NCBI GenBank assembly: GCA_022701635.1
Contig: JAKOOD010000607.1
Location: 1-33,707 of the forward strand
Length of the DNA: 33,707 bases
Source: Burkholderiaceae bacterium
GTDB taxonomy: Bacteria > Pseudomonadota > Gammaproteobacteria > Burkholderiales > Burkholderiaceae_D
Reading direction: 5' to 3'
Below are positions 2,835-27,864 of this stretch, one piece after another. The notes beneath the pieces are model-generated. The model saw only the letters and a list, made by a program, of their open reading frames with translations, did no database searches and was not told the DNA's origin. Made by a program: the position numbers and the translations under genes. How positions within the stretch are numbered: position 1 is the stretch's first letter; the number at the start of each line of letters is the position of its first letter.

Positions 2835-5612
2835 ATGTCGCGTCACGCCAACAAGCTCAAACTCACCGCCGCCCTAGTTTCCAGCGCTTTCCTGATCGCA
2901 GGCCTGGGTGCCTGCGGCAAGACCCAGACTACCGAATCGCTGCTTGCCGAAGCCCAGCAATACCAGCAGAAAGGTGATGTCAAGGCAGCCCTGATCCAGC
3001 TGAAGAATGCCGTCGAGAAGAGCCCGGAGAATGGCGAAGCCCGTATCGCGCTCGGCAATCTCGAACTGGCCATGGGCGACGTCCCCTCGGCCGAGAAGGA
3101 ATTCCGCAAGGCGCGCTCGCTCGGCATCCCTGCAGAGCGTGTCCTGCCGATGATGGGCAAGGCGATGGCGCAGCAAGGCAAATTCAAGGACATCCTGCAG
3201 GAAGTCACGCCGGAGATAGCGGCCAAATCGGCGCCGCTGATGTCGCTGCGCGGCGAAGCCCTGCTGACCACCGGCCAGCCGGGCGACGCCAAGGCGGCCT
3301 TCGATCAGGCGCTGGCGATCAACCCGAACTCGGGCGATGCCCTGCTGGGCCTGGCACGCTTGGCCGTGCTGGCGAAGGACCGCGATGCGACCGAGCGCTA
3401 CGTCAACGAGGCAGTGGCCAAGGATCCGAAGAATCCCGAAGTCTTCATGGCGCAAGGTACCCTGCTGCGTATGCAGAACAAGCCGGACGAGGCGCTGGCC
3501 GCGTTCAACCGCACGCTGGCGCTGGACCCGGCCCATCGCACCGCCCACATCGAAAAAGCCTATATCGAGATCGGCCGCGGCAAGTTCCCGGCAGCGAAGA
3601 CGGAAATCGATGCCGCACAAAAGAATGCGCCGGGCAACCTGCTGGTCACCTACACCAGCGCCCTGTATGAATTCACCCAAGGTAAATTCTCCGCAGCCCA
3701 GGAACAGTTGCAGCGTGTGTTGAAAGTGGCGCCGGATCACATGCCGAGCGTCTTGCTGGCCGGTGCATCCGAGCTGCAGCTGGGCGCGACCCAGCAGGCC
3801 GAACAGCACCTGCGCAAGTACCTGGAGGCGGCGCCCAACGACACCTATGCGCGCAAGCTGCTGGCCCAGGTCCAGCTGAAGAATGCCCAGCCGGCCGACG
3901 CCGCCGCCACGCTGGCGCCGGCACTGAAGAACGATGCCGCCGATCCGCAGCTGCTGGCCCTGGCCGGCGAATCCTATATGCAGGTGCGCGATTTCAACAA
4001 GGCCAGCAGCTACCTGGAAAAAGCCGCCGAACTGGCGCCGAAAGCGGCCGGCGTGCGCACCTCGCTCGGCCTGTCCAAACTGGCCAGGGGCGACCAGTCG
4101 GGCGGCCTGAGCGACCTGGAAATGGCGACCTCGCTCGATCCCAAGTCCTCGCGTGCCACCATGGCGCTGGTGCAGACCGAAATGGGTCTCAAGCACTACG
4201 ACAAGGCGCTGGCCGCGGCCGACGCCCTGGCCAAGCAGGAACCGAAGAACCCGCAGGTCTACAACCTGAAGGCTGCGGTCAACATGGTCAAGGGCGACAT
4301 CCCGGCCGCGCGCACTGCCCTCGACCAGGCGCTGGCGCTCGATCCGACCTTCGCACCGGCCGTGAAAAACATGGCGCGCCTGGATCTGCTCGAGAAAAAG
4401 CCGGACGCCGCCAAGCAGCGCTATGAAAAAGTCCTGGAAAAGGACAAGAACAACGTCGAGGCGATGACTTCGCTGGGCCAGCTGGCCATGCTGCAGAACC
4501 GTCCTGAAGAAGCCACCTCGTGGTTCGAAAAGGCCAGCAACGCCAGCCCGAACGCGGTGAACCCGGCGGTTACGCTCGGCATGCACTACCTGCGCACCAA
4601 CCAGCCGGCCAAGGCCTTGAACCTGGCGCGCAAGTTCCAGACCACCAATGCCACCAGCCCCGAGCTGCTGGACATGCTGGGTCAGGCGCAGGTCGCCAAC
4701 AAGGACTTGAACGGTGCACTGGAAACCTACAGCAAGATGTCCAACGTGGTGCCGAAGTCGGCCACGCCGCAGATGCGCCTGGCCGCCGTCCACATGGCGA
4801 TGAAGAACAATGCCGCCGCCACCGAGGACCTCAAGCGTGCCGTCGAGCTGCAGCCTGAACTGGTGCCGGCACGCCTGGCCCAGGTCGAGATGGCGATGCG
4901 CAGCGGCCGTCCGGACGAGGCGCTCGGCATCGCACGCCAGATGCAGAAGATGAACGACAAGTCGCCGGTCGGCTATGCCACCGAAGGCGACATCCTGCTG
5001 GCGCAGCGCAAGGCGGCGCAGGCGGTGCCGGCCTACGACAAGGCACTGGCCCTGGCCAAGTCGCCGCAGTTGCTGGTGCGCTCGATGCAGGCACTCAACA
5101 TGGCCGGCAAGGGCAAGGAAGCCGAGGCGCGCGGCAACGCGTGGCTGAAAGAGCACCCGAGCGATCCGATGGTCACGATGTTTGTCGCGGAAACCAACCT
5201 GGCGCGCAAGGACTACCCGACCGCGATCCGGATGCTGGAAGCCGTGGCCAAGCAAACCCCGGACAATGCAGCCGCCCTGAACAACCTGGCTTACGCCTAT
5301 CAGCAGGTCAAGGATCCGCGCGCACTGCCGACCGCCGAACAGGCGTTCAAGCTGGCCAGCACCAATGCGGGCGTCATGGATACCCTCGGCTGGATGCTGG
5401 TGGAACAAGGGAACACCAGTCGCGGTTTGCCGCTGCTGCAAAAAGCCAGCAGCATGGCGCCGAATGCAACCGAAATCCGCTATCACCTTGCGGTCGGTCT
5501 GCACAAGTCCGGCGACAAACAGGGGGCGCGCAAGGAACTGGATACCTTGCTCGCCGATGGCAAGCCGTTCCCGCAAGCCGACGACGCACGCGCATTGCTA
5601 AAGACCTTGTAA
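2835..5612 (+). CDS. prsT: XrtA/PEP-CTERM system TPR-repeat lipoprotein PrsT
   Basis: A 925-residue protein matching the TPR protein PrsT that accompanies exosortase A EPS loci, often beside the PrsK/PrsR two-component pair. The start at 2835 has a good Shine-Dalgarno (GAGGAA, 7 nt spacing). Residues 1-27 form a lipoprotein signal with lipobox LGAC (Cys27), so the mature protein should be membrane-anchored in the cell envelope. The rest is tandem 34-residue TPR-like repeats with the typical ALxLDP signature (for example ALAINPNSGDALLGLARLA, ALALDPTFAPAVKNMARLD), about 22-25 repeats in all. Such a scaffold suggests assembly of EPS or PEP-CTERM secretion components; the mechanism is not established. 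Here prsT stands alone, more than 9 kb from the main EPS operon and without prsK or prsR next to it. It is followed by a probable terminator. Confidence 0.92.
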   Translation: MSRHANKLKLTAALVSSAFLIAGLGACGKTQTTESLLAEAQQYQQKGDVKAALIQLKNAVEKSPENGEARIALGNLELAMGDVPSAEKEFRKARSLGIPAERVLPMMGKAMAQQGKFKDILQEVTPEIAAKSAPLMSLRGEALLTTGQPGDAKAAFDQALAINPNSGDALLGLARLAVLAKDRDATERYVNEAVAKDPKNPEVFMAQGTLLRMQNKPDEALAAFNRTLALDPAHRTAHIEKAYIEIGRGKFPAAKTEIDAAQKNAPGNLLVTYTSALYEFTQGKFSAAQEQLQRVLKVAPDHMPSVLLAGASELQLGATQQAEQHLRKYLEAAPNDTYARKLLAQVQLKNAQPADAAATLAPALKNDAADPQLLALAGESYMQVRDFNKASSYLEKAAELAPKAAGVRTSLGLSKLARGDQSGGLSDLEMATSLDPKSSRATMALVQTEMGLKHYDKALAAADALAKQEPKNPQVYNLKAAVNMVKGDIPAARTALDQALALDPTFAPAVKNMARLDLLEKKPDAAKQRYEKVLEKDKNNVEAMTSLGQLAMLQNRPEEATSWFEKASNASPNAVNPAVTLGMHYLRTNQPAKALNLARKFQTTNATSPELLDMLGQAQVANKDLNGALETYSKMSNVVPKSATPQMRLAAVHMAMKNNAAATEDLKRAVELQPELVPARLAQVEMAMRSGRPDEALGIARQMQKMNDKSPVGYATEGDILLAQRKAAQAVPAYDKALALAKSPQLLVRSMQALNMAGKGKEAEARGNAWLKEHPSDPMVTMFVAETNLARKDYPTAIRMLEAVAKQTPDNAAALNNLAYAYQQVKDPRALPTAEQAFKLASTNAGVMDTLGWMLVEQGNTSRGLPLLQKASSMAPNATEIRYHLAVGLHKSGDKQGARKELDTLLADGKPFPQADDARALLKTL

Positions 5613-5706: not shown

Positions 5707-5723
5707 CAATGGGGAATCCTGCG

Positions 5724-6503
5724 ATGGCGACTTTTGACGATTTCAAGGACCCAGAGGGTGAATCGGCCGTATCCCTATCGGACGCTCATGATTTCAATGA
5801 TCGCGATAATATTACGCCCTCTCAATATGAGGATGTGATCGTGAACCACGATTCGTACGGAATCCGGCTTACCGATACGGCGGACGGGCGTAATTCAGCA
5901 AGCATGTTAATCAACAAGATGTATGCCTGGCGTGGCTACGCCGGTACGCATCAGCTGAGTGACGACCCCAATCGCATCACCCTCACGGCAACCGACAAGG
6001 GCGAAGTGGTGGGCACGCTCACCATCGGCATCGACTCTCCGATCGGCCTGATGGCCGACCAGATTTTCAAGGAAGAACTCGATTTTCATCGCAACAAGGG
6101 CGCGCGCCTGTGCGAGTTCACCAAACTGGCCTTCGATCCGTCGGTGCGCTCGAAAACCTCGCTGGCCAATCTGTTTCACCTGGCCGTGATCTACGGCCGC
6201 GATATCCATAAATGCACCGATATCGTGATCGAAGTCAATCCGCGTCATCGCCGTTTTTACGAGCGCATGCTGGGCTTCAAGCAGGAAGGCGATCTGAAAA
6301 TCAATCCGCGCGTCGACGCGCCGGCCTTTCTGCTGCGCGTCAACCTGGAATACGTGACGGAGCAAATCGAAAAATTCGGCGGCACCTTCACTGCCGACAA
6401 TAACGTCACCGAACGTTCGTTTTATCCGTATTTCTTTTCGCCGCGCGAAGAAATGGGTATTCGCAACCGCCTGCTGCGCATGGACGACCAGCACGCGGGA
6501 TGA
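5724..6503 (+). CDS. FeeM-like N-acyl amino acid synthase (GNAT-fold acyltransferase)
   Basis: A 259-residue protein resembling the FeeM/PEP-CTERM-associated acyltransferase group of the GNAT and acyl-homoserine-lactone-synthase fold. These enzymes typically move a fatty acyl chain from acyl-ACP to an amino acid amine. Visible features are a polar, acidic N-terminal tail (about 40 residues), a core beginning SYGIRLTDTADGRNSASMLINKMY, the central strand/turn GARLCEFTKLAFDPSVRSKTSLANLFHLAVIYG, and the family-like motif VNPRHRRFYERMLGF. The ATG at 5724 is preferred over 5709 because GGGGAAT sits at the right distance before it. No signal peptide or membrane segment is present. It is followed by ThiF-like and nitroreductase-like genes, which suggests that an N-acyl amino acid is made and then modified. 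The acyl and amino acid substrates cannot be read from the sequence. Confidence 0.75.
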   Translation: MATFDDFKDPEGESAVSLSDAHDFNDRDNITPSQYEDVIVNHDSYGIRLTDTADGRNSASMLINKMYAWRGYAGTHQLSDDPNRITLTATDKGEVVGTLTIGIDSPIGLMADQIFKEELDFHRNKGARLCEFTKLAFDPSVRSKTSLANLFHLAVIYGRDIHKCTDIVIEVNPRHRRFYERMLGFKQEGDLKINPRVDAPAFLLRVNLEYVTEQIEKFGGTFTADNNVTERSFYPYFFSPREEMGIRNRLLRMDDQHAG

Positions 6504-6588: not shown

Positions 6589-7467
6589 ATGAATAATCCG
6601 TTCCGTTATGAACAGGCGTTTTCACGCAACATTGGCTGGGTCACGCCGGCAGAGCAATCCACGCTGCGCGGCAAGCGCGTCGCCATCGCCGGCGGCGGCG
6701 GGGTCGGCGGTGTCCACCTGCTGACCCTGGCGCGCCTGGGTGTCGCCAACTTCCATATCGCCGATTTCGACAGTTTCGACATCGTCAACTTTAACCGCCA
6801 GGTGGGCGCCATGATGTCGACCGTCGGCCAGCCCAAGGCCGAGGTGCTGGCGCGCATGGCCAAGGACATCAACCCCGAAATCGACATCAAGATCTTCGAC
6901 CAGGGCGTCCACAAGGACAACCTGAACGATTTCCTGGCCGGTGTCGACCTGTACGTCGACGCGCTCGATTTCTTCGCCTTCGACGCCCGCCAGCAGACCT
7001 TCGCGGCCTGCGCCCGCCTCGGCATCCCGGCCACCACCGCGGCGCCGCTCGGCATGGGAGCCGCCCTGCTCAACTTCCTGCCGGGCCAGATGACCTTCGA
7101 GGAATACTTCCAGTGGGGTGACCTGCCCGAGCTCGACAAGGCGATCCGGTTCGTGGTCGGGCTGGCCCCGGCAGGCCTGCACCGGCCTTACCTGGTGGTC
7201 CCGGAAGCCGTCAATTTCGCCGAGCGCCGCGGTCCGTCGACCTTCATGGCCTGCCAGCTGTGCGCCGGCATCGTCGCCACCGAGGCCCTGAAGATCCTTC
7301 TCGGGCGCGGCAAGATCCTGGCGGCGCCGCATGGCATGCAGTTCGACGCCTACCGCAACAAACTCAGCCATACCTGGCGTCCCGGCGGCAACGGCAATCC
7401 GCTGCACCGCCTGATGATTGGCGTCGCCAAGCGCCAGATGACCAAGCAACTGGTGCCGCAAGCATGA
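6589..7467 (+). CDS. ThiF/MoeB/E1-like adenylyltransferase
   Basis: A 292-residue Rossmann-fold protein of the ThiF/E1 superfamily, which adenylates a carboxylate (usually a protein or peptide C-terminus) using ATP. The nucleotide-binding glycine loop GGGGVGG is at residues 35-41, the ribose-binding acid D59/D61 follows strand 2, and the E1 signature N-x-N-R-Q is at residues 67-71. The usual zinc-binding CxxC pair is absent and there is no obvious ubiquitin-like sulfur-carrier gene nearby, so it is unlikely to be a thiamin or molybdopterin enzyme. It may instead activate a small carboxylic acid, possibly the N-acyl amino acid made by its neighbour (inference). The Shine-Dalgarno is poor. The stop overlaps the next start (ATGA at 7464), showing tight translational coupling to the nitroreductase gene. 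Confidence 0.82.
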   Translation: MNNPFRYEQAFSRNIGWVTPAEQSTLRGKRVAIAGGGGVGGVHLLTLARLGVANFHIADFDSFDIVNFNRQVGAMMSTVGQPKAEVLARMAKDINPEIDIKIFDQGVHKDNLNDFLAGVDLYVDALDFFAFDARQQTFAACARLGIPATTAAPLGMGAALLNFLPGQMTFEEYFQWGDLPELDKAIRFVVGLAPAGLHRPYLVVPEAVNFAERRGPSTFMACQLCAGIVATEALKILLGRGKILAAPHGMQFDAYRNKLSHTWRPGGNGNPLHRLMIGVAKRQMTKQLVPQA

Positions 7468-8531
7468 ACATCCCGCCGAGCCTCCACCGCATCCTCGAAC
7501 TGGCGCGCTGGGCGCCGAGCGGTGACAATACCCAGTGCTGGCGCTTCGAAATCGCCGCGCCCGACCATCTGGTCATCCACGCCTACGACACCCGGCACGA
7601 CACCGTCTACGACCTGGATGGCCATCCGAGCCAGATTTCCATGGGTGCGCTGCTGGAAACCATCGACATCGCCGCCAGCGAACAGGGCTTGCGCGCCCAC
7701 ACCCTGCGCCGTGCCGATAGCGCGCCCGACCGCCCGCTGTTCGACGTGCGCTTCAGCCCCGACGCCACGGTGACGCCGAGTCCCCTGCTCGGCGCCGTCG
7801 AAACGCGTACCGTGCAGCGCCGTCCGATGCATACGCGTCCACTGACTGCGGCCGAGAAGCGTGAGCTGGAAACTTGCGTCGGTCCCGGCTTCGCCGTGAC
7901 CTGGATCGAAGGCTTCGGCCCCAAGCTCAAGACGGCACGCCTGATGTTCAATAACGCCAGGCTGCGTCTGACCATGCCGGAAGCCTTCGAGGTGCACCGC
8001 CGCATCATCGACTGGAATGCCAGGTACAGCCCGGACAAGGTGCCGGACCAGGCGCTCGGCGTCGACAAGGCGACGCTGAAACTGATGAAATGGGCGATGG
8101 TGAGCTGGACGCGGATGTCGACCATCAATACCCTGATGGGCACCTGGGCGCCGCGCCTGCAGATGGATTTACTGCCGGGTATCGCCTGTGCGGCCCACTT
8201 CGTGCTGAAGGCGAAGCAGCAACCGCGGACGATCGACGATTACGTGCAGGCCGGGCGCGCGGTCCAGCGCTTCTGGCTGACCCTGACCCGGCTCGGGCTG
8301 TTCATGCAGCCGGAAATGACGCCGCTGATCTTTGCCAAGTATGTGCGCGAAAACACGCCTTTTACGCGTAAGACCCGCCTGCATGCGCCGGCGCGCCGCC
8401 TGCAGCAGCAAGGCGCCGAACTGATCTTCAACGACGCACTGTACCCGGTCTACATGGGCCGCCTGGGTGCCGGCCCCGCCCCTGCCGCACGGTCGCAGCG
8501 CCTGCCGGTCGAGCAGCTGCTGAAGCGCTGA
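7464..8531 (+). CDS. Nitroreductase-family flavoprotein
   Basis: A 355-residue protein with nitroreductase-like signatures: LELARWAPSGDNTQCWRFE at residues 9-27, in the place where FMN-binding nitroreductases carry A-R-x-A-P-S-x-x-N-x-Q-P-W, and SQISMGALLETIDIAASEQGL at about residues 56-76, matching the family's central helix. It is longer than the usual 200-residue enzymes and resembles the large, divergent nitroreductase relatives found in biosynthetic settings. The start overlaps the thiF-like stop by 4 nt, so the longer upstream frame (from 7260) is not needed. FMN-dependent oxidation or reduction of the product of the two preceding enzymes is inferred. A Pro/Ala-rich C-terminal tail ends the protein, and a strong bidirectional terminator follows within 70 bp. 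Confidence 0.78.
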   Translation: MNIPPSLHRILELARWAPSGDNTQCWRFEIAAPDHLVIHAYDTRHDTVYDLDGHPSQISMGALLETIDIAASEQGLRAHTLRRADSAPDRPLFDVRFSPDATVTPSPLLGAVETRTVQRRPMHTRPLTAAEKRELETCVGPGFAVTWIEGFGPKLKTARLMFNNARLRLTMPEAFEVHRRIIDWNARYSPDKVPDQALGVDKATLKLMKWAMVSWTRMSTINTLMGTWAPRLQMDLLPGIACAAHFVLKAKQQPRTIDDYVQAGRAVQRFWLTLTRLGLFMQPEMTPLIFAKYVRENTPFTRKTRLHAPARRLQQQGAELIFNDALYPVYMGRLGAGPAPAARSQRLPVEQLLKR

Positions 8532-9777: not shown

Positions 9778-10863
9778 TTAAGACGATTGTTTCTTTGAGA
9801 GGAAAGCCTTGTAAAACAGATGGCGTGCCAGCATCAGCGGCGGCATGCGCAGCCAGTTGCCGCGCACGTACAGTGCAAAACGCGCGGCGCCGGTGAATGC
9901 GTCGGCGCAGCTGGCATGCATCGGCAGCAGCGCGCGTTCGAACAGGGCATCCATCACGGCCAGCAGCGCCCGGTTTGGCGCGGCCGCGGCAAGCGCATCC
10001 AGCACCGCGTCCGGCACTGGCGTGCCGAGCAGGCGCCGGCCGTAGCGCAGCGCATAGAACAGCGGCCGTTCCAGTTCGAGCGCGCGCGCCCGTGCCGGCA
10101 GCGCTTCCCAGAAGCCGGCACGACCACCGAACTCGTGGAACAGGAAGTGCAGGTCGAGCAGGTCGCGCAAGCCCTTGTCGAATTCGCCGTCGAAGAACAG
10201 GTGCACCGCACTGTGCAGCACCATGTCGGCCGGCGCCAGCGTGGCCAGGCCGGGCGCGTGCGCGATCGGCACGGCGGCGGCGCGCAACAGTGCTGGATCC
10301 GGATGTACGGGTGCGGTCTGCGGCAGGATCGCGTGGTGGACGTCGATGCTGCTCTGCCGGCGCACGTGCTGCATCGGCGGCAGTTCGTGCATCCACTGGC
10401 GGTAATAGCGCTGGTCGTAGGCGTCGGTCTGGCTGCTGGCCCAGCCATGCAGCATCAGCGCCGACTCCACATCGTCCAGGCGCGCCTGCGGCACCATGAT
10501 GTCGATGTCGCTGAACAGGCGGCCGGCGCCAGCGCGCAGGCCGGCCATCGCGTAGGCCGCGCCTTTCAGCAGCAGCAGCGGCGCCACGTCGTCCACCCGG
10601 GCAAGCGCGGCCTGGATGCATTCGACTTCGAAACCCACCGCCTGGCGGTGGCGCGTGGCCAGCGCGCGCACCCATTCCAGGTGGGCGCGCGGCTGTGCCG
10701 GTACGGCGTCCAGCAGACCATGCTCCTCGATCAGCGCCAGCAGCGTCGGACTCAGGTTGACGCTGGTCGACTGGCGCAGCAGCAGGTCCCAGTCGGCCAG
10801 ACCCAGGCTCGGCAGCAGGCCGGGATCGCGCAGGACCGCCACCAGGATCGGCGGGCGCTTCAC
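9778..10863 (-). CDS. HPr-rel-A-associated nucleotidyltransferase family protein
   Basis: A 361-residue protein of the PF14907-type uncharacterised nucleotidyltransferases. The diagnostic stretch is LLLLKGAAYAMAGL (about residues 96-109) followed by AGRLFSDIDIMV (113-124), where K100/G101 and the acidic pair D119/D121 fit the nucleotidyltransferase G-S/D-x-D catalytic pattern. Relatives occur beside HprK-like kinases and PqqD-like proteins, including in lasso-peptide tailoring clusters. Its start overlaps the kinase stop by 4 nt (ATGA), so it is the last gene of the four-gene minus-strand operon. It probably transfers a nucleotide or sugar-like group onto a product of the system; the acceptor is unknown. 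No signal peptide is present, so it should be cytosolic. Confidence 0.82.
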   Translation of the reverse strand: MKRPPILVAVLRDPGLLPSLGLADWDLLLRQSTSVNLSPTLLALIEEHGLLDAVPAQPRAHLEWVRALATRHRQAVGFEVECIQAALARVDDVAPLLLLKGAAYAMAGLRAGAGRLFSDIDIMVPQARLDDVESALMLHGWASSQTDAYDQRYYRQWMHELPPMQHVRRQSSIDVHHAILPQTAPVHPDPALLRAAAVPIAHAPGLATLAPADMVLHSAVHLFFDGEFDKGLRDLLDLHFLFHEFGGRAGFWEALPARARALELERPLFYALRYGRRLLGTPVPDAVLDALAAAAPNRALLAVMDALFERALLPMHASCADAFTGAARFALYVRGNWLRMPPLMLARHLFYKAFLSKKQSS

Positions 10864-11774
10864 CGCGGCGCCTCCAGCGCGGCGAACAGCGCCATCGCTT
10901 CGTCCAGGTTGCTGTAGCGGAAATCGTAGCTGGCGCAGCCTTCGATCGCGCCGGCCAGGGTGGCGAACCCGCGCGCGCCCATGTGGCTGTAATTGAAGGC
11001 ATTATCGGCCACGCGGAAAAAGGCGCGGGCGCGCGGGATCGGGGTAAGCGAGGTGGCGGCGCCGGCTTCGTACTTGGGAAACACGATCCAGGCCGGGCGC
11101 GCGGTCTCGTGGGCGCGCGCGACGCTGTCCGCCGGGGCCTTCAGGTGCGCCACCGTGCCCTTGGTGGTGTTGCTGACCGGACGGCTCAATACGGCGTCGG
11201 CGACGTAGCCGCGGATCACGTCGATCGAGCGGTTCTTGAGGCTGACCGGACGCGGCACCGGCACCAGCAGGCCGTCTTGCGGACGGAACAGCGCCAGCTC
11301 GTCGGACAGCAGGCGCCAGCCGCGGTTGACGAGCGCCGCGCACAGCGTGCTCTTGCCCGATCCCGGCGGCGCCGGCAGGATCGCCGCCAGGCCGCCGCGC
11401 TCGACCACCGCGGCATGGATCATCAGGTAGGCATGGGCGCGTGTCGAGATGCACCAGTTCAGGCCCCATTCCAGCATCGGGAAGGCATGCGCTTCGGGCA
11501 GGGGCTCGAACGGCAACTGGCCGTCGAGGTCGAAATTCACCTGCGGCTGGTACCAGCGGCGCAGGCCGCCGGGGTGCTGCAGGCCAACGTGGAAATCGGC
11601 GAAGCCATCCTCGCCGTGGACCGGGTAATCGCCGTACAACAGGGCGATGCCGTCGGCCACGTGGCGGATCGGCGAACGGATGCGGCTGACGAAGGCGCCG
11701 GTCTGCACCAGCAGGCCAGGGCCCGCCAGGCGCGTCTCGAGCTGGCGGCGGCTGAGCGATGCGACCGTCAGCAT
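10860..11774 (-). CDS. HprK-related kinase A
   Basis: A 304-residue relative of HPr kinase/phosphorylase that keeps the C-terminal P-loop kinase domain. His120 (YLMIHAAVV) starts the domain, the Walker A motif GSGKST is at residues 138-143, and the acidic LLSDELAL at 155-162 matches the metal-binding strand of HprK. It matches the HPr-rel-A family, which is defined by genomic association with a small PqqD-like protein and a nucleotidyltransferase, exactly the neighbours seen here. It does not lie next to an HPr or PTS gene, so a role in carbon catabolite control is unlikely. Phosphorylation of a peptide or secreted protein is an inference by analogy with the HprK-like kinases of lasso peptide clusters. 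The start overlaps the upstream stop (ATGCTGA). Confidence 0.88.
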   Translation of the reverse strand: MLTVASLSRRQLETRLAGPGLLVQTGAFVSRIRSPIRHVADGIALLYGDYPVHGEDGFADFHVGLQHPGGLRRWYQPQVNFDLDGQLPFEPLPEAHAFPMLEWGLNWCISTRAHAYLMIHAAVVERGGLAAILPAPPGSGKSTLCAALVNRGWRLLSDELALFRPQDGLLVPVPRPVSLKNRSIDVIRGYVADAVLSRPVSNTTKGTVAHLKAPADSVARAHETARPAWIVFPKYEAGAATSLTPIPRARAFFRVADNAFNYSHMGARGFATLAGAIEGCASYDFRYSNLDEAMALFAALEAPR

Positions 11775-12055
11775 GCGAGGGTGTCGATGAGGTTCAGGTG
11801 TTGCAGGTCGCGCAACAAGGTGTCGGTCTCGAGGTCGAGTTCGTCCGGTTCGAGGTCGAATTCGGCCTGCAGGACGACGGCCAGCGCAGTGCGCGTGGCC
11901 GGGCCGCGGCGCAGCGCCAGCAGCAGTTCGATGGCGCCATCGCCCAGCAGGTGGGTGTCGCCGGACAAATCGTTATACAGGATGTACTCGCCGTCCCACT
12001 GCCGGTACTGCAGGGTCTGTCCGGGCCGCAGGCGCCACGTCTCGCTGGCGGCCAC
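11768..12055 (-). CDS. HPr-rel-A system PqqD-family peptide chaperone
   Basis: A small protein (95 residues from the GTG at 12055) with the PqqD fold pattern: a beta hairpin TWRLRPGQTLQYRQWDGEYILYNDLSGDTHLLGDGAIELLLAL, then a winged-helix C-terminus with two acidic helices ending LNLIDTLAC. PqqD-like proteins bind leader peptides of ribosomally made, modified peptides. No radical SAM gene is present; the partner here is the HprK-like kinase. The GTG lies 4 nt after the upstream stop codon and places the conserved hairpin near the N-terminus. An ATG at 12103 would add 16 unconserved-looking residues and overlap the preceding gene by 44 nt, and cannot be excluded. Confidence 0.8.
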   Translation of the reverse strand: MAASETWRLRPGQTLQYRQWDGEYILYNDLSGDTHLLGDGAIELLLALRRGPATRTALAVVLQAEFDLEPDELDLETDTLLRDLQHLNLIDTLAC

Positions 12056-12059
12056 CGGA

Positions 12060-12686
12060 TCAATCCATGGTGCCGTACAGGTAGGCGACGATGTCGTTGG
12101 CATACCACTTCTGGCCGGCCATCGGGGCGTAGTAGCCTTTCGCCACCCATTCGCTCCATACGCTGCGCAAGGACTCGATGGTGAGGAAATTGACGCGGCC
12201 CGACAACACGTTCAGGTAAGCGGCCAGCATGTACTTGGCCATCTTGGTGCTGTCGAAAGGGGCGCCATGCACGATCTGGTTGCAGCTCGCCCCGGCGTAA
12301 GCGCTGCCGATATTGCAGCTGAAATGCTTGGAAAAAGGATCGGTCGGGGAGCAGCCAGCCGGCCACGCCGTCTTGCTCCAGGCAAGCGGATCGAGGCCAT
12401 TGCACACTGCCGCCGGACCGTGGTGACTGAGCGTGCCCACGGCCTTGTTCTGGCCGACCGCCGACACTGCCGCCGAAGCCGACACGCCGCAGTAGGTACA
12501 TGCCATGCCGGGCTGGCTGTGCAGGGTCAGCAGCACACCTGCGGCACCTGCACCGGCTCGGGTAAAGCGCCGGCGTGAAGCGCCCTTGGCAGACATCGCG
12601 TCCGATGCCGCGGGCTGCGCAGCGTCCACTTGCGGAATCGATGCGACAGGATCAGTTTCGCTAGGGTGACGGTTTTGGGTAGCCAC
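12060..12686 (-). CDS. Secreted-looking Cys-containing unknown protein, first gene of HPr-rel-A operon
   Basis: A 208-residue protein I cannot assign to a named family. The start is GTG with a strong AGAGGA site 5 nt upstream. An unusual polar N-terminal extension of about 37 residues (Ala/Asp/Pro-rich) precedes SRRRFTRAGAGAAGVLLTL, which looks like a Tat-type twin-arginine signal with a short hydrophobic helix. Six Cys follow: C-x2-C in GMACTYCGV, then VCNG, AGCS, FSCN and ASCN, so three disulfides or a metal site are possible. The C-terminal part is helical and Trp/Tyr-rich (RSVWSEWVAKGYYAPMAGQKWY). It leads the operon behind a sigma-54 promoter and directly precedes the PqqD-like chaperone, which makes it a candidate substrate of the kinase and nucleotidyltransferase. 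Function unknown. Confidence 0.8.
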   Translation of the reverse strand: MATQNRHPSETDPVASIPQVDAAQPAASDAMSAKGASRRRFTRAGAGAAGVLLTLHSQPGMACTYCGVSASAAVSAVGQNKAVGTLSHHGPAAVCNGLDPLAWSKTAWPAGCSPTDPFSKHFSCNIGSAYAGASCNQIVHGAPFDSTKMAKYMLAAYLNVLSGRVNFLTIESLRSVWSEWVAKGYYAPMAGQKWYANDIVAYLYGTMD

Positions 12687-13608: not shown

Positions 13609-14385
13609 TTATTTCTGTTGCAACAGCTCGCGCACATAATTCCCTGGCACGGCATAGGTAATGCCGCTTGGGTTGGTGATGGCGGTTTCCTTCAGTCCCT
13701 TGACGAACACGGCGTTGATCACGCCCCACACTTTGCCGCTGGCGGGATCGTACAGGGGACTGCCGCTATTGCCCGGATAGGCAGTCGCGTCGAGCTGGAA
13801 GATATTGAAGGGCGCACGCTGCAATTGCACCAGCTGGCGCACGTCCAGCTTACGCGAGTTGAGCGACGGGGTTACCACCGGCGTGATGGCGGCCAGGGTG
13901 GCGCGGTGGGTGGCGGCATGCAGGCCCAGCACCATGCCCAGCGGATAGCCGGTAAATGCCAGTGCCTGCCCTTCGAGCGCCTTGTCCGAATCGACCAGCT
14001 CGAGCGCCGGTAGGGGCGTGCCGGTGAGGCGCAGGTGAGCCAGGTCGTGTTCGGCGTCGCGCGCCACCAGCTGGGCCGGACGGAAGCGCACCATGTCGCC
14101 GTCCGCGGTCACGATGCCGATCTGTTCCATGCGTTCGGAATCGACCGTGGCCGGCACCACATGGGAATTGGTGATGATGCTGAGGCCGTCGCCGACCACG
14201 AAGCCGGTACCGACGAACACCGTGGCCGGGCTGCGGGTGCGCTCGAAGGTGCCGACGCCGACCACCGAACGCTTGACGGTGGGCACGACGGCCGTGAGAT
14301 CGGCAGCCTGCACTACACCCGGCAGCGTCGGCAAAAAAGCAACAGCAGCACAGAGCAGCGCAATACCAGGCAGGCTCGTCTTCAT
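13609..14385 (-). CDS. Trypsin-like (S1/HtrA-type) serine protease
   Basis: A 258-residue secreted protease. The ATG at 14385 gives a Sec signal peptide (MKTSLPGIALLCAAVAFLPTLPGVVQA, cleavage near residue 27); a TTG at 14433 would add 16 residues and is less likely. The chymotrypsin-fold triad is intact: His75 in TNSHVV, Asp114 in EHDLAHLRL and Ser207 in YPGNSGSPLY. There is no PDZ domain, so it is shorter than DegP/HtrA. It is probably periplasmic or secreted and lies 103 bp upstream of the export lipoprotein gene on the same strand, possibly co-transcribed with it. A role in processing surface or PEP-CTERM proteins is only suggested by location. Confidence 0.88.
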   Translation of the reverse strand: MKTSLPGIALLCAAVAFLPTLPGVVQAADLTAVVPTVKRSVVGVGTFERTRSPATVFVGTGFVVGDGLSIITNSHVVPATVDSERMEQIGIVTADGDMVRFRPAQLVARDAEHDLAHLRLTGTPLPALELVDSDKALEGQALAFTGYPLGMVLGLHAATHRATLAAITPVVTPSLNSRKLDVRQLVQLQRAPFNIFQLDATAYPGNSGSPLYDPASGKVWGVINAVFVKGLKETAITNPSGITYAVPGNYVRELLQQK

Positions 14386-14541
14386 CCGGGCACGCACTCG
14401 ATCAGTGAAATTAATATTTCGATAAGGCAGCAAACGTGCACCCCCTTTTGCATTTAAGACATTACAATTAAGCGCTTGTTCTGGAGCAAAGCACCCAACG
14501 CAAGTCTACGCGATGACATCCTATCCTGCACGGATAAGGTG

Positions 14542-25974: not shown

Positions 25975-27864
25975 ATGTGCGGAATAGTCGGCATCTTTGA
26001 TACCCACGGCAACCGGGACATCGACCGCGAAGCGTTGCGGCGCATGAACGAGAGCCAGCACCACCGCGGCCCCGACGAGGGCGAACTGTACCTGGAAAAG
26101 GGCCTGGGCATGGGCCACCGCCGCCTGTCGGTGATCGACCTGGCCACCGGCCAGCAGCCCTTCCTCAATCCGGCGCGCGACGTCGCCCTGGTGTTCAACG
26201 GCGAAATCTACAATTACCGGCTGCTGCGCGACGAGCTGGTCGCGCTCGGCCATGTGTTCCGCACCAAGTCCGACACCGAAGTCGTGCTGCAGTCGTGGCT
26301 GGCGTGGGGGCCGGATTGCGTGCGCCGCCTGCGCGGCATGTTCGCCTTCGCCATCTGGGACCGCAGCCGACAGACGCTGTTCCTGGCGCGCGACCACGTC
26401 GGCGTCAAGCCGATGTTCTATTCGCTGCTGCCGAACGGCCTGTTCGTGTTCGGCTCGGAACTGAAATCGATCATGACCTTCCCCGAGCTGTCGCGCGAAT
26501 TGAACCCGCGCGCGGTCGAGGATTATTTCGCCTACGGCTACGTGCCGGAGCCGAAGACCATCTTCAATAACGCCTATAAACTCAGCCCGGGCCACTGCAT
26601 CACCCTGAAAGTCGGCGACCGCGCGGTGCAGCCGCAGCGCTGGTGGGACCTGGCCTTCCGCCCGGCACCGCAGCGTCCGGACGCCGACGTCCAGGAAGAG
26701 CTGATCGAACGCCTGCGCGAGACCGTGCACAGCCAGATGGAATCCGAGGTGCCGCTGGGCGCCTTCCTGTCGGGCGGCGTCGATTCCAGCGCGGTGGTGG
26801 CGATGATGGCCGGCGACAAGCCGGTGACCACCTGCTCGATCGGCTTCGACGATCCGGAATTCGACGAGTCCGAGTACGCGAACCAGGTGGCGCGCCGCTA
26901 CGCGACCGTCCACCACGGGCAGGTCGTCGACAAGGACGACTACGGCCTGGTCGATACGCTGGCCCACCTGTACGACGAACCGTTCGCCGACAGTTCGGCG
27001 ATCCCGACCTACCGCGTGTGCCAGCTGGCGCGGCGCCACGTGACGGTGGCGCTGTCGGGCGACGGCGGCGACGAGAATTTTGCCGGCTACCGCCGCTACC
27101 GCTTCGCGATGGCCGAGCACAGCGTGCGCTCGAAACTGCCGGAAGCGATCCGCAAGCCGCTGTTCGGCACCCTGGGCAGCCTGTACCCGAAGGCCGACTG
27201 GGCGCCGCGCATGTTCCGCGCCAAGACCACCTTCGAGGCGCTGGCGCGCGACCTGGTCGAGGGCTACTTCCACGGCGTGTCGCGCCTGACCGACCGCCAG
27301 CGCGACCAGTTGTTTTCACAAGGCTTCCGCGACGACCTGCAGGGCTACCGCGCGATCGACGTGATGCGCGAGCACGCCGCGCGCGCGCCGACCGACGATC
27401 CGCTGTCGCTGATCCAGTACCTCGATTTCAAGACCTGGCTGCCGGGCGACATTCTCACCAAGGTCGACCGCGCCAGCATGGCCCATTCGCTGGAAGTGCG
27501 CGTGCCCCTGCTCGACCACACCTTCTGCGAATACGCGGCCACGCTGCCGAACGACCTGAAACTGCGCGGCGGCGAAGGCAAGTACGTGCTGAAGAAGGCG
27601 CTCGAGCCGCACCTGCCGCACGACATCATGTACCGCGCCAAAAAAGGGTTTTCGATCCCGCTGGCGGACTGGCTGCGCGGTCCGCTGCGCCAAGCCGTGC
27701 GCGACGGCGTGCTCGGCGCGCGCCTGCTCGATACCGGCATCTTCAACCGCCGCTACCTGGAACAACTGGTCAGCCAGCACGAGTCCGGCGCGGCCGACCA
27801 CAGCGTGGCGCTGTGGTCGCTGCTGATGTTCGAATCTTTCCTGCGGGTATCGGTGGCGTCATGA
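25975..27864 (+). CDS. XrtA-system amidotransferase (asparagine synthase-like)
   Basis: A 629-residue class II glutamine amidotransferase. Cys2 (MCGIVGIFD) is the glutaminase nucleophile after Met removal. The Gln-hydrolysing domain spans about residues 2-200 (HHRGPDEG, LVFNGEIYNY). The synthetase domain carries the PP-loop SGGVDSS at residues 266-272 and DGGDENFAGY near 363. It matches the EPS amidotransferase family of XrtA loci rather than housekeeping AsnB. Homologues are required for EPS production or flocculation in related bacteria, probably through amidation of a uronic acid or other sugar carboxylate (inference). It has no signal peptide and follows the GT gene directly. Confidence 0.93.
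   Translation: MCGIVGIFDTHGNRDIDREALRRMNESQHHRGPDEGELYLEKGLGMGHRRLSVIDLATGQQPFLNPARDVALVFNGEIYNYRLLRDELVALGHVFRTKSDTEVVLQSWLAWGPDCVRRLRGMFAFAIWDRSRQTLFLARDHVGVKPMFYSLLPNGLFVFGSELKSIMTFPELSRELNPRAVEDYFAYGYVPEPKTIFNNAYKLSPGHCITLKVGDRAVQPQRWWDLAFRPAPQRPDADVQEELIERLRETVHSQMESEVPLGAFLSGGVDSSAVVAMMAGDKPVTTCSIGFDDPEFDESEYANQVARRYATVHHGQVVDKDDYGLVDTLAHLYDEPFADSSAIPTYRVCQLARRHVTVALSGDGGDENFAGYRRYRFAMAEHSVRSKLPEAIRKPLFGTLGSLYPKADWAPRMFRAKTTFEALARDLVEGYFHGVSRLTDRQRDQLFSQGFRDDLQGYRAIDVMREHAARAPTDDPLSLIQYLDFKTWLPGDILTKVDRASMAHSLEVRVPLLDHTFCEYAATLPNDLKLRGGEGKYVLKKALEPHLPHDIMYRAKKGFSIPLADWLRGPLRQAVRDGVLGARLLDTGIFNRRYLEQLVSQHESGAADHSVALWSLLMFESFLRVSVAS

Follow-up and report, generated by a model that had tools for sequence, protein, structure and literature searches.

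A conserved HPr-rel-A gene cassette with a candidate substrate that carries a predicted twin-arginine leader

Results

A four-gene cassette in a Burkholderiaceae contig

We analysed a 33,707-nt stretch of DNA from a Burkholderiaceae bacterium (GenBank assembly GCA_022701635.1, contig JAKOOD010000607.1, positions 1 to 33,707; hereafter the window), in which four neighbouring genes form an HPr-rel-A system (Table 1). They encode a protein that carries a predicted twin-arginine signal (the leader protein), a discrete PqqD-like recognition element (RRE) for ribosomally synthesized and post-translationally modified peptides (RiPPs), an HprK-related kinase and a PF14907 nucleotidyltransferase (the transferase). 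The original prediction, made from the letters of the window, had placed four genes here and named the last three, and family scores uphold those identities: the RRE matches TIGR04353 with 59 bits (cut-off 35), the kinase matches TIGR04352 with 408 bits (cut-off 200), and the transferase matches PF14907 with 166 bits. The RRE gene probably starts at the GTG at 12055, directly after the stop codon of the leader gene, rather than at the ATG at 12103, since similarity to relatives begins there.

Table 1 Features of the cassette in window coordinates
Feature	Position	Strand	Description
Leader protein (proposed substrate)	12060..12686	minus	208 aa, GTG start; no Pfam/NCBIfam family
Leader protein residues 1-37	12576..12686	minus	Polar N-terminus, sequence variable among relatives
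Leader protein residues 38-62	12501..12575	minus	Predicted twin-arginine signal peptide RRRFTRAGAGAAGVLLTLHSQPGMA, the conserved part; signal peptidase I predicted to cut after A62
Leader protein residues 63-90	12417..12500	minus	Post-cut segment; predicted local distance difference test (pLDDT) <50 at 67-88
S71, S75 codons	12474-12476, 12462-12464	minus	Invariant; candidate phosphorylation sites
Leader protein residues 91-208	12063..12416	minus	Cargo domain, mainly helical, well predicted; no solved relative found
Discrete RRE (RiPP recognition element; PqqD-like; TIGR04353)	11768..12055	minus	Longest open reading frame (ORF) from 12103
HprK-related kinase A (TIGR04352)	10860..11774	minus	Walker A (G138, G140, K141, T143), H120, D158-E159 invariant
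PF14907 nucleotidyltransferase	9778..10863	minus	K100-G101 and D119-x-D121 invariant

The four genes occur together and were lost together in some relatives

To establish how regularly a homologue of the leader protein accompanies HPr-rel-A genes, as the original prediction had proposed to survey, we collected loci at three levels. The sets overlap, in that the window and one further genome (G050) are in both the order- and class-level sets, and several of the 80 named loci, which are the best 80 by kinase similarity of 582 confirmed, come from the same strains as genomes in other sets. A profile search found all four genes in 33 of 33 order-level loci. Of 369 genomes sampled from the class, 41 carry HPr-rel-A genes, and the 41 class-level loci have the kinase and the transferase in every case, the leader protein in 40 and the RRE in 39. 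The locus lacking a leader protein (L284, in genome G319) is cut by the start of its contig, and at L098 and L140 an ORF lies at the RRE position, below detection by the RRE profile. All four genes are present, in order, in 79 of the 80 named loci. The closest named relative, judged by the kinase, is Herbaspirillum sp. SJZ107 (98% identity).

The kinase (HprK_rel_A) scored above its cut-off in 33 of 61 genomes, and a search with the single leader-protein sequence found the leader protein in 30, all within those 33. Of the 37 genomes of the genus, 28 encode kinase and leader protein alike and the remaining nine have neither. In two genomes of other families (G050 and G055) a divergent leader protein, missed by this search, lies at the same place. 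A third such genome, G041, was ruled out as an order-level locus without a substrate, since a leader protein and an RRE were found downstream of its transferase gene. In the reverse direction, a leader-protein profile matched in 39 genomes of the class, 33 of which have a match within 3 kb of an HprK_rel_A gene; the other six comprise three larger secreted proteins without the leader, two short leader peptides and one match at a contig end. Homologues of the first protein are thus not mostly found without the other genes. The product of the first gene is so constant a companion of the other three genes that it is their likely substrate, as originally suggested.

Nine genomes of the genus lack the system; in seven of them the adjacent export gene is retained (73-79% identity). 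At two of these loci (L308, L309) pepA follows the export gene directly and the cassette is gone. At a third (L304, 2240-2824, reversed strand) a single open frame lies between the export gene and pepA; its start resembles leader protein residues 20-47 (E 0.008) and it continues with transferase residues 254-360 (E 1e-24). Read in this way, the frame is a deletion scar that has lost the rest of the leader gene, the RRE, the kinase and most of the transferase gene. The remaining four genomes carry various other genes at the cassette site. We conclude, from these comparisons of gene order, that the four-gene cassette has been lost in one piece in some relatives. Of ten neighbouring genes scanned at L220 and L175, eight fall into unrelated Pfam families and two into none; this points to a self-sufficient set of four genes. 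We also observed a cassette with a different, Gly/Asn-rich cargo in an Acidobacteriota metagenome-assembled genome (MAG; L226, 3606-4025), by horizontal transfer or through a binning error.

The leader protein combines a conserved signal with variable cargo

We compared 116 leader proteins (114 distinct), 78 from named loci and 38 from others; L158, which has no start codon, and L165, which has no leader protein, were left out. We set start codons, predicted cuts and cargo classes either by rule or by eye. The N-termini are polar and differ from protein to protein: the arginine pair begins anywhere from index 5 to index 129 (median 27), with the highest numbers produced by start codons that had been chosen far upstream. 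Next come the arginine pair, a stretch of hydrophobic residues, in many cases TLxSRP, and then a small-x-small site, which lies 24 or 25 residues past the start of the arginine pair in 93 of 116 proteins. In the window, a 37-residue polar N-terminus precedes the twin-arginine-type motif S-R-R-R-F-T-R. We conclude that the element shared by these proteins is, as predicted from their alignment, a twin-arginine signal peptide and not the polar N-terminus. A Tat-like (twin-arginine translocation) signal and six Cys had been ascribed to this protein; the motif, the hydrophobic stretch, an AxA-like site and six Cys (63, 66, 95, 112, 124 and 135) are indeed present, but Tat-signal models do not match (see Discussion), and of the six positions only 66 and 95 hold Cys in 80% or more of the 51 relatives aligned.

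We considered the lasso-like motif PxLxxxG as a general recognition site in the N-terminus and dropped it, as it occurs within 22 residues before the arginine pair in 13 of 116 proteins (14 across the full N-terminus). This is above chance (shuffled mean 1.1, maximum 5), and the motif may have a recognition role in Massilia relatives, where it was seen by eye.

The cargo varies in kind. Proteins of class 1 have a segment resembling C..SG..SGN.S, in many cases GYWKN, as well as a C-terminal domain that is helical; class 2 proteins often end in motifs such as SCWxSF; and the precursor at L094 has just 12 residues beyond the predicted cut. The model of the window protein is confident from about residue 91. 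Its fold has no PDB structural match at E ≤0.001 and none with Z ≥2, and its sequence matches PDB entries only at E ≥0.058. Secreted proteins of 630, 290 and 475 aa at L133, L134 and L135 match the cargo part of the leader-protein profile (A1) with neither a Tat leader nor a cassette, and the cargo domain seems to be reused there.

The leader signal finds HprK-like kinases and a second precursor type

We built a profile, A4, from 28 leader positions. Its training included some of the proteins that it later found, so that its sensitivity is not independently measured; its specificity is less affected. In the 61 genomes A4 gave 37 matches at E ≤0.01. All 31 matches at E ≤4.1e-4 lie inside leader proteins, as do two weaker ones (G018, G055); the other four are in genomes without the system (G016, G044, G052, G057; E 0.0018-0.0036). 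The 369 genomes of the class gave 44 matches at E ≤0.001, spread over 41 genomes; 36 are within 3 kb of HprK_rel_A, four near another HprK-like kinase and four unlinked. Five genomes with HprK_rel_A had no A4 match (G075, G167, G194, G283, G319). In 299 genomes of the phylum, 16 of 21 matches have an RRE and a kinase close by; of the rest, one (L285) has an RRE only, one (L295) has neither within 1.5 kb and three are in unrelated proteins. Since A4 matches lie mostly beside HprK-like kinases, we conclude that the leader signal, as captured by this profile, is a mark of this kind of system rather than a generic Tat signal.

The eight class-level matches outside HPr-rel-A lead to ten short precursors (L130, L132, L279, L280, L281 at 4117-5349 on the reversed strand, L282, L283) of 66-87 residues, with up to three in tandem. 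All ten of these class 3 precursors have Gly-Ser within five residues of the predicted cut, as judged by eye. An HprK-like kinase scoring below the TIGR04352 cut-off is encoded at four of the seven loci and an RRE at three; no PF14907 relative was seen in the stretches read around them. The short precursors appear to be a second, related precursor type, which is found in no library that we searched.

A predicted RRE fold and conserved catalytic motifs

The predicted model of the PqqD-like protein (pLDDT 93) has the TbiB1-leader complexes as its best structural match (E 6e-4), with a lasso B1-leader complex and PqqD next. All of the top 14 matches (nine entries), of which two have E ≤0.001, are RiPP proteins; these include ThcOx, sactisynthase and McbBCD entries, which we take to carry RREs. 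The protein is therefore predicted to have an RRE fold, and leader presentation is the role to be expected from such a fold.

A search of the PDB with the kinase profile placed HPr kinase first (E 0.002), with the Asp-Glu of our kinase aligned at an Asp-Asp. H120, K141 and D158-E159 are invariant in 16 aligned kinases, as are the Walker A residues G138, G140, K141 and T143. Lasso kinases require a His-Lys-Asp-Asp set (PMC9266682). In the transferase, K100-G101 and D119-x-D121 are invariant in 13 aligned sequences, and solved relatives matched only at E >1.

In a quick tree of 126 kinases, which has six long branches, the 20 kinases from class 2 loci form one clade (support 99), and the cargo-class labels require one change on the tree (shuffled mean 18.9). 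A kinase clade that tracks cargo type would be expected if the kinase acts on the cargo, although linked inheritance would give the same pattern.

Two invariant serines lie just behind the predicted cut

Seven columns are invariant in 51 aligned sequences: M1, R38, R39, S71, S75, D145 and N159. S71 and S75 lie 9 and 13 residues past the predicted cut, within the stretch of low model confidence. The Ser content is 20.5% over the first 14 residues of the mature protein, against 8.0% further on. The pattern C.{1,4}S[AGST]..[SA] occurs near the cut in 93 of 116 proteins, compared with a shuffled mean of 1.2; it was read off these same proteins, which as relatives are not independent. On this pattern of conservation, S71 and S75 are candidate phosphorylation sites.

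The genomic neighbourhood

The cassette lies in an XrtA/PEP-CTERM exopolysaccharide locus, with genes for TIGR03027 export, PepA, a chain-length protein, exosortase A, PrsT and others. We looked for XrtA-locus genes within 6 kb on each side of the 80 named loci, some of which are shortened by contig ends, and found one at 45, which suggests a matrix role in the relatives of the window. We rejected XrtA dependence as a general rule, and therefore a general matrix role, because 35 of the 80 loci have no such gene nearby. The earlier statement that no cyclase is nearby holds: the asparagine-synthase relative at 25975-27864 is the XrtA-system amidotransferase (TIGR03108, 1032 bits) and falls below the lasso-cyclase cut-off (264 bits vs 525), and the window has no macrolactam cyclase. 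TatC is encoded elsewhere in the same genome.

Other genes in the window include a FeeM-like N-acyl amino acid synthase (5709-6503) and a ThiF-like protein followed by an Acg-type nitroreductase (6589-8531); relatives of the FeeM-like, ThiF-like and Acg-type genes lie near 20, 23 and 7 of the 80 named loci, respectively. A gene for a trypsin-like protease lies near the cassette in the window (13609-14433) and in 38 of the 80 loci, in some directly before the leader gene (L140, L145), and its product is a possible processing enzyme. Positions 54-2222, cut by the contig edge, match the C-terminal portion of a fused isobutyryl-CoA mutase (IcmF).

Discussion

We think it probable that the four genes form a protein-modification cassette, in which RRE-guided phosphorylation and then further decoration of the leader protein precede its export by Tat. 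This reading draws on the conservation of the cassette, a case in which it was lost as a unit, a specific leader, a predicted RRE fold, intact motifs in both enzymes and invariant serines after the predicted cut, and from these we infer the following course. In the cytoplasm, the RRE would bind the twin-arginine signal peptide of the leader protein and bring the protein to the HprK-type kinase, which would phosphorylate one or more serines located shortly after the point of later cleavage (S71, S75 or both). Because the leader has no motif of the lasso or linear polyphosphorylated peptide (LPP) type, binding by the RRE is proposed by analogy. The PF14907 enzyme might then add a sugar or a nucleotide to the phosphate, by analogy with PsmN, which attaches a hexose to phospho-Ser (PMC9266682). 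The folded, modified protein would leave through the housekeeping Tat translocase, general signal peptidase would take off the leader, and the modified cargo would reach the periplasm or the surface, here from an XrtA/PEP-CTERM exopolysaccharide locus.

Several observations weigh against this reading. The leader protein has no Pfam or NCBIfam match at E ≤1, Tat-signal models included; all scores of 17 related leader proteins were weak and under the cut-offs, including some against Tat-signal models; and the strict pattern RRx[FLMV]x[KR] fits 80 of 116. TfuB1 and TbiB1 head the matches of the RRE sequence profile among 177,635 PDB sequences, at weak E values (0.0054 and 0.03). A Nitrosospira MAG (L165) has the kinase and the transferase with no leader protein or RRE in 12.9 kb, and the 35 loci with no XrtA-locus gene nearby bear on the matrix role. 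In LPP biosynthesis LppN was without detectable effect (PMC13381572), and the invariance of S71 and S75 could be structural. The original prediction had the PqqD-like protein presenting the polar N-terminal extension; presentation of a leader still fits the predicted fold, but the extension varies, the lasso/LPP motif [YW]xxP occurs in none of 116 proteins in the 60 residues before the arginine pair (one more match, at L081, falls in sequence that results from choosing a start far upstream), and it is the Tat signal that is conserved instead.

The position of the phosphorylated residue is where the closest competitor arises. Lasso kinases target a C-terminal Ser (PMC9266682), so that the kinase might modify the cargo C-terminus, as in phosphorylated lasso peptides, rather than the segment behind the signal peptide; the conserved C-terminal ends of class 2 cargo, such as SCWxSF, compete as a site, and 42 of 51 class 1 sequences have Thr at position 206. 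However, this C-terminal Thr varies whereas S71 and S75 are invariant, and the ten class 3 precursors have Gly-Ser near the cut but unlike C-termini. We regard a C-terminal site as unlikely. That the conserved element is a Tat-type signal would also suit an RRE that serves mainly as an export-proofreading chaperone, with the kinase and the transferase acting on some other, unlinked target. The kinase phylogeny tracks cargo type, though linked inheritance would produce this too, and outside HPr-rel-A, too, the leader profile leads to HprK-like kinases; both argue against an unlinked target, which we consider improbable. Least credible, to the point of being nearly dismissed, is a regulatory HPr kinase for polysaccharide synthesis with unrelated neighbouring genes. 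The distant HprK homology and the position in an exopolysaccharide locus speak for it, but a distinct match to HPr kinase is present in the genome (E 1.5e-58; a 159-aa frame on contig C383, below the cut-off), and the four genes stay together even at loci without XrtA-locus genes nearby.

Phosphorylation behind the signal peptide, followed by Tat export, is thus the reading that we retain, and it resembles a published system. The LPP clusters of Bacillota (Popov et al., May 2026; PMC13381572) combine an RRE, an HprK and a nucleoside triphosphate (NTP) transferase with no cyclase, sit in capsule loci and are, as described, restricted to that phylum; LppK phosphorylates core Ser3. Our cassette shares the discrete RRE (here by predicted fold), the HprK-like kinase, the NTP transferase and the lack of a cyclase, precursors whose N-terminal region is conserved and whose remainder varies, signal-peptidase-type cleavage (predicted here), a polysaccharide-locus setting and a phosphosite Ser early in the core, for which S71 and S75 are candidates only. 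In contrast to LPP (PMC13381572), whose leader has a YxxPxVL-type RRE motif and whose cluster encodes a SipW-like peptidase and an MsbA-like exporter, the leader here is a predicted twin-arginine signal, and neither a SipW-like peptidase nor an MsbA-like exporter is among the 22 other main ORFs of the window, each of which matches another family best. Here, a folded domain about 120 residues long can serve as cargo, and the system occurs in Pseudomonadota and one Acidobacteriota MAG rather than in Bacillota. Since the YxxP motif and the dedicated peptidase and exporter are absent, we file the cassette as LPP-like and not as a member of LPP. A Tat leader would explain why no dedicated peptidase or pump is needed.

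The phosphorylated lasso peptides paeninodin and pseudomycoidin (PMC9266682) likewise have an HprK-like kinase, an RRE and, for pseudomycoidin, a nucleotidyltransferase, but here there is no macrolactam cyclase and the substrate is no lasso precursor. RREs of the DUF2063 type are paired with DUF2282 precursors that bear secretion signals (PMC12710340); those are Sec signals, and the main text of that paper has no words starting with kinase, nucleotidyltransferase or Tat. HPr-rel-A itself is defined in NCBIfam (TIGR04352/TIGR04353), with our kinase and RRE above the curated cut-offs; we met no substrate model for it in NCBIfam or Pfam, and the leader-protein family is added here. In literature searches that cover few subscription papers, we found no mention of HPr-rel-A, nothing on an HprK-related kinase or a PqqD family peptide chaperone (matches were to 'PqqD family protein' only) and nothing that combines twin-arginine with RiPP, precursor peptide and RRE. 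The original suggestion of a plausible new system stands for the substrate family and its Tat leader, which we found in no searched library or paper, but not for the rest: the kinase and chaperone were already named in NCBIfam, and a cyclase-free RRE, HprK and NTP-transferase system was published for Bacillota (PMC13381572).

A wider proposal, which we advance tentatively and rate at somewhat less than an even chance, is that the twin-arginine signal doubles as a RiPP leader. The RRE would then read an export signal, so that modification would be coupled to Tat export and proof-read before it, in a widespread class of Gram-negative exported phospho- or phospho-glyco-proteins. That class would span folded domains of ~120 residues to tails of 12 residues, together with a second kinase subfamily and its short-precursor families.

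With the leader protein, HPr-rel-A genes gain a candidate substrate and a testable reaction. If the proposed reading is true, RRE-guided peptide modification would be joined to the Tat export route, HprK-type phosphorylation would extend from small peptides to exported folded proteins, and the leader profile could find such substrates by sequence.

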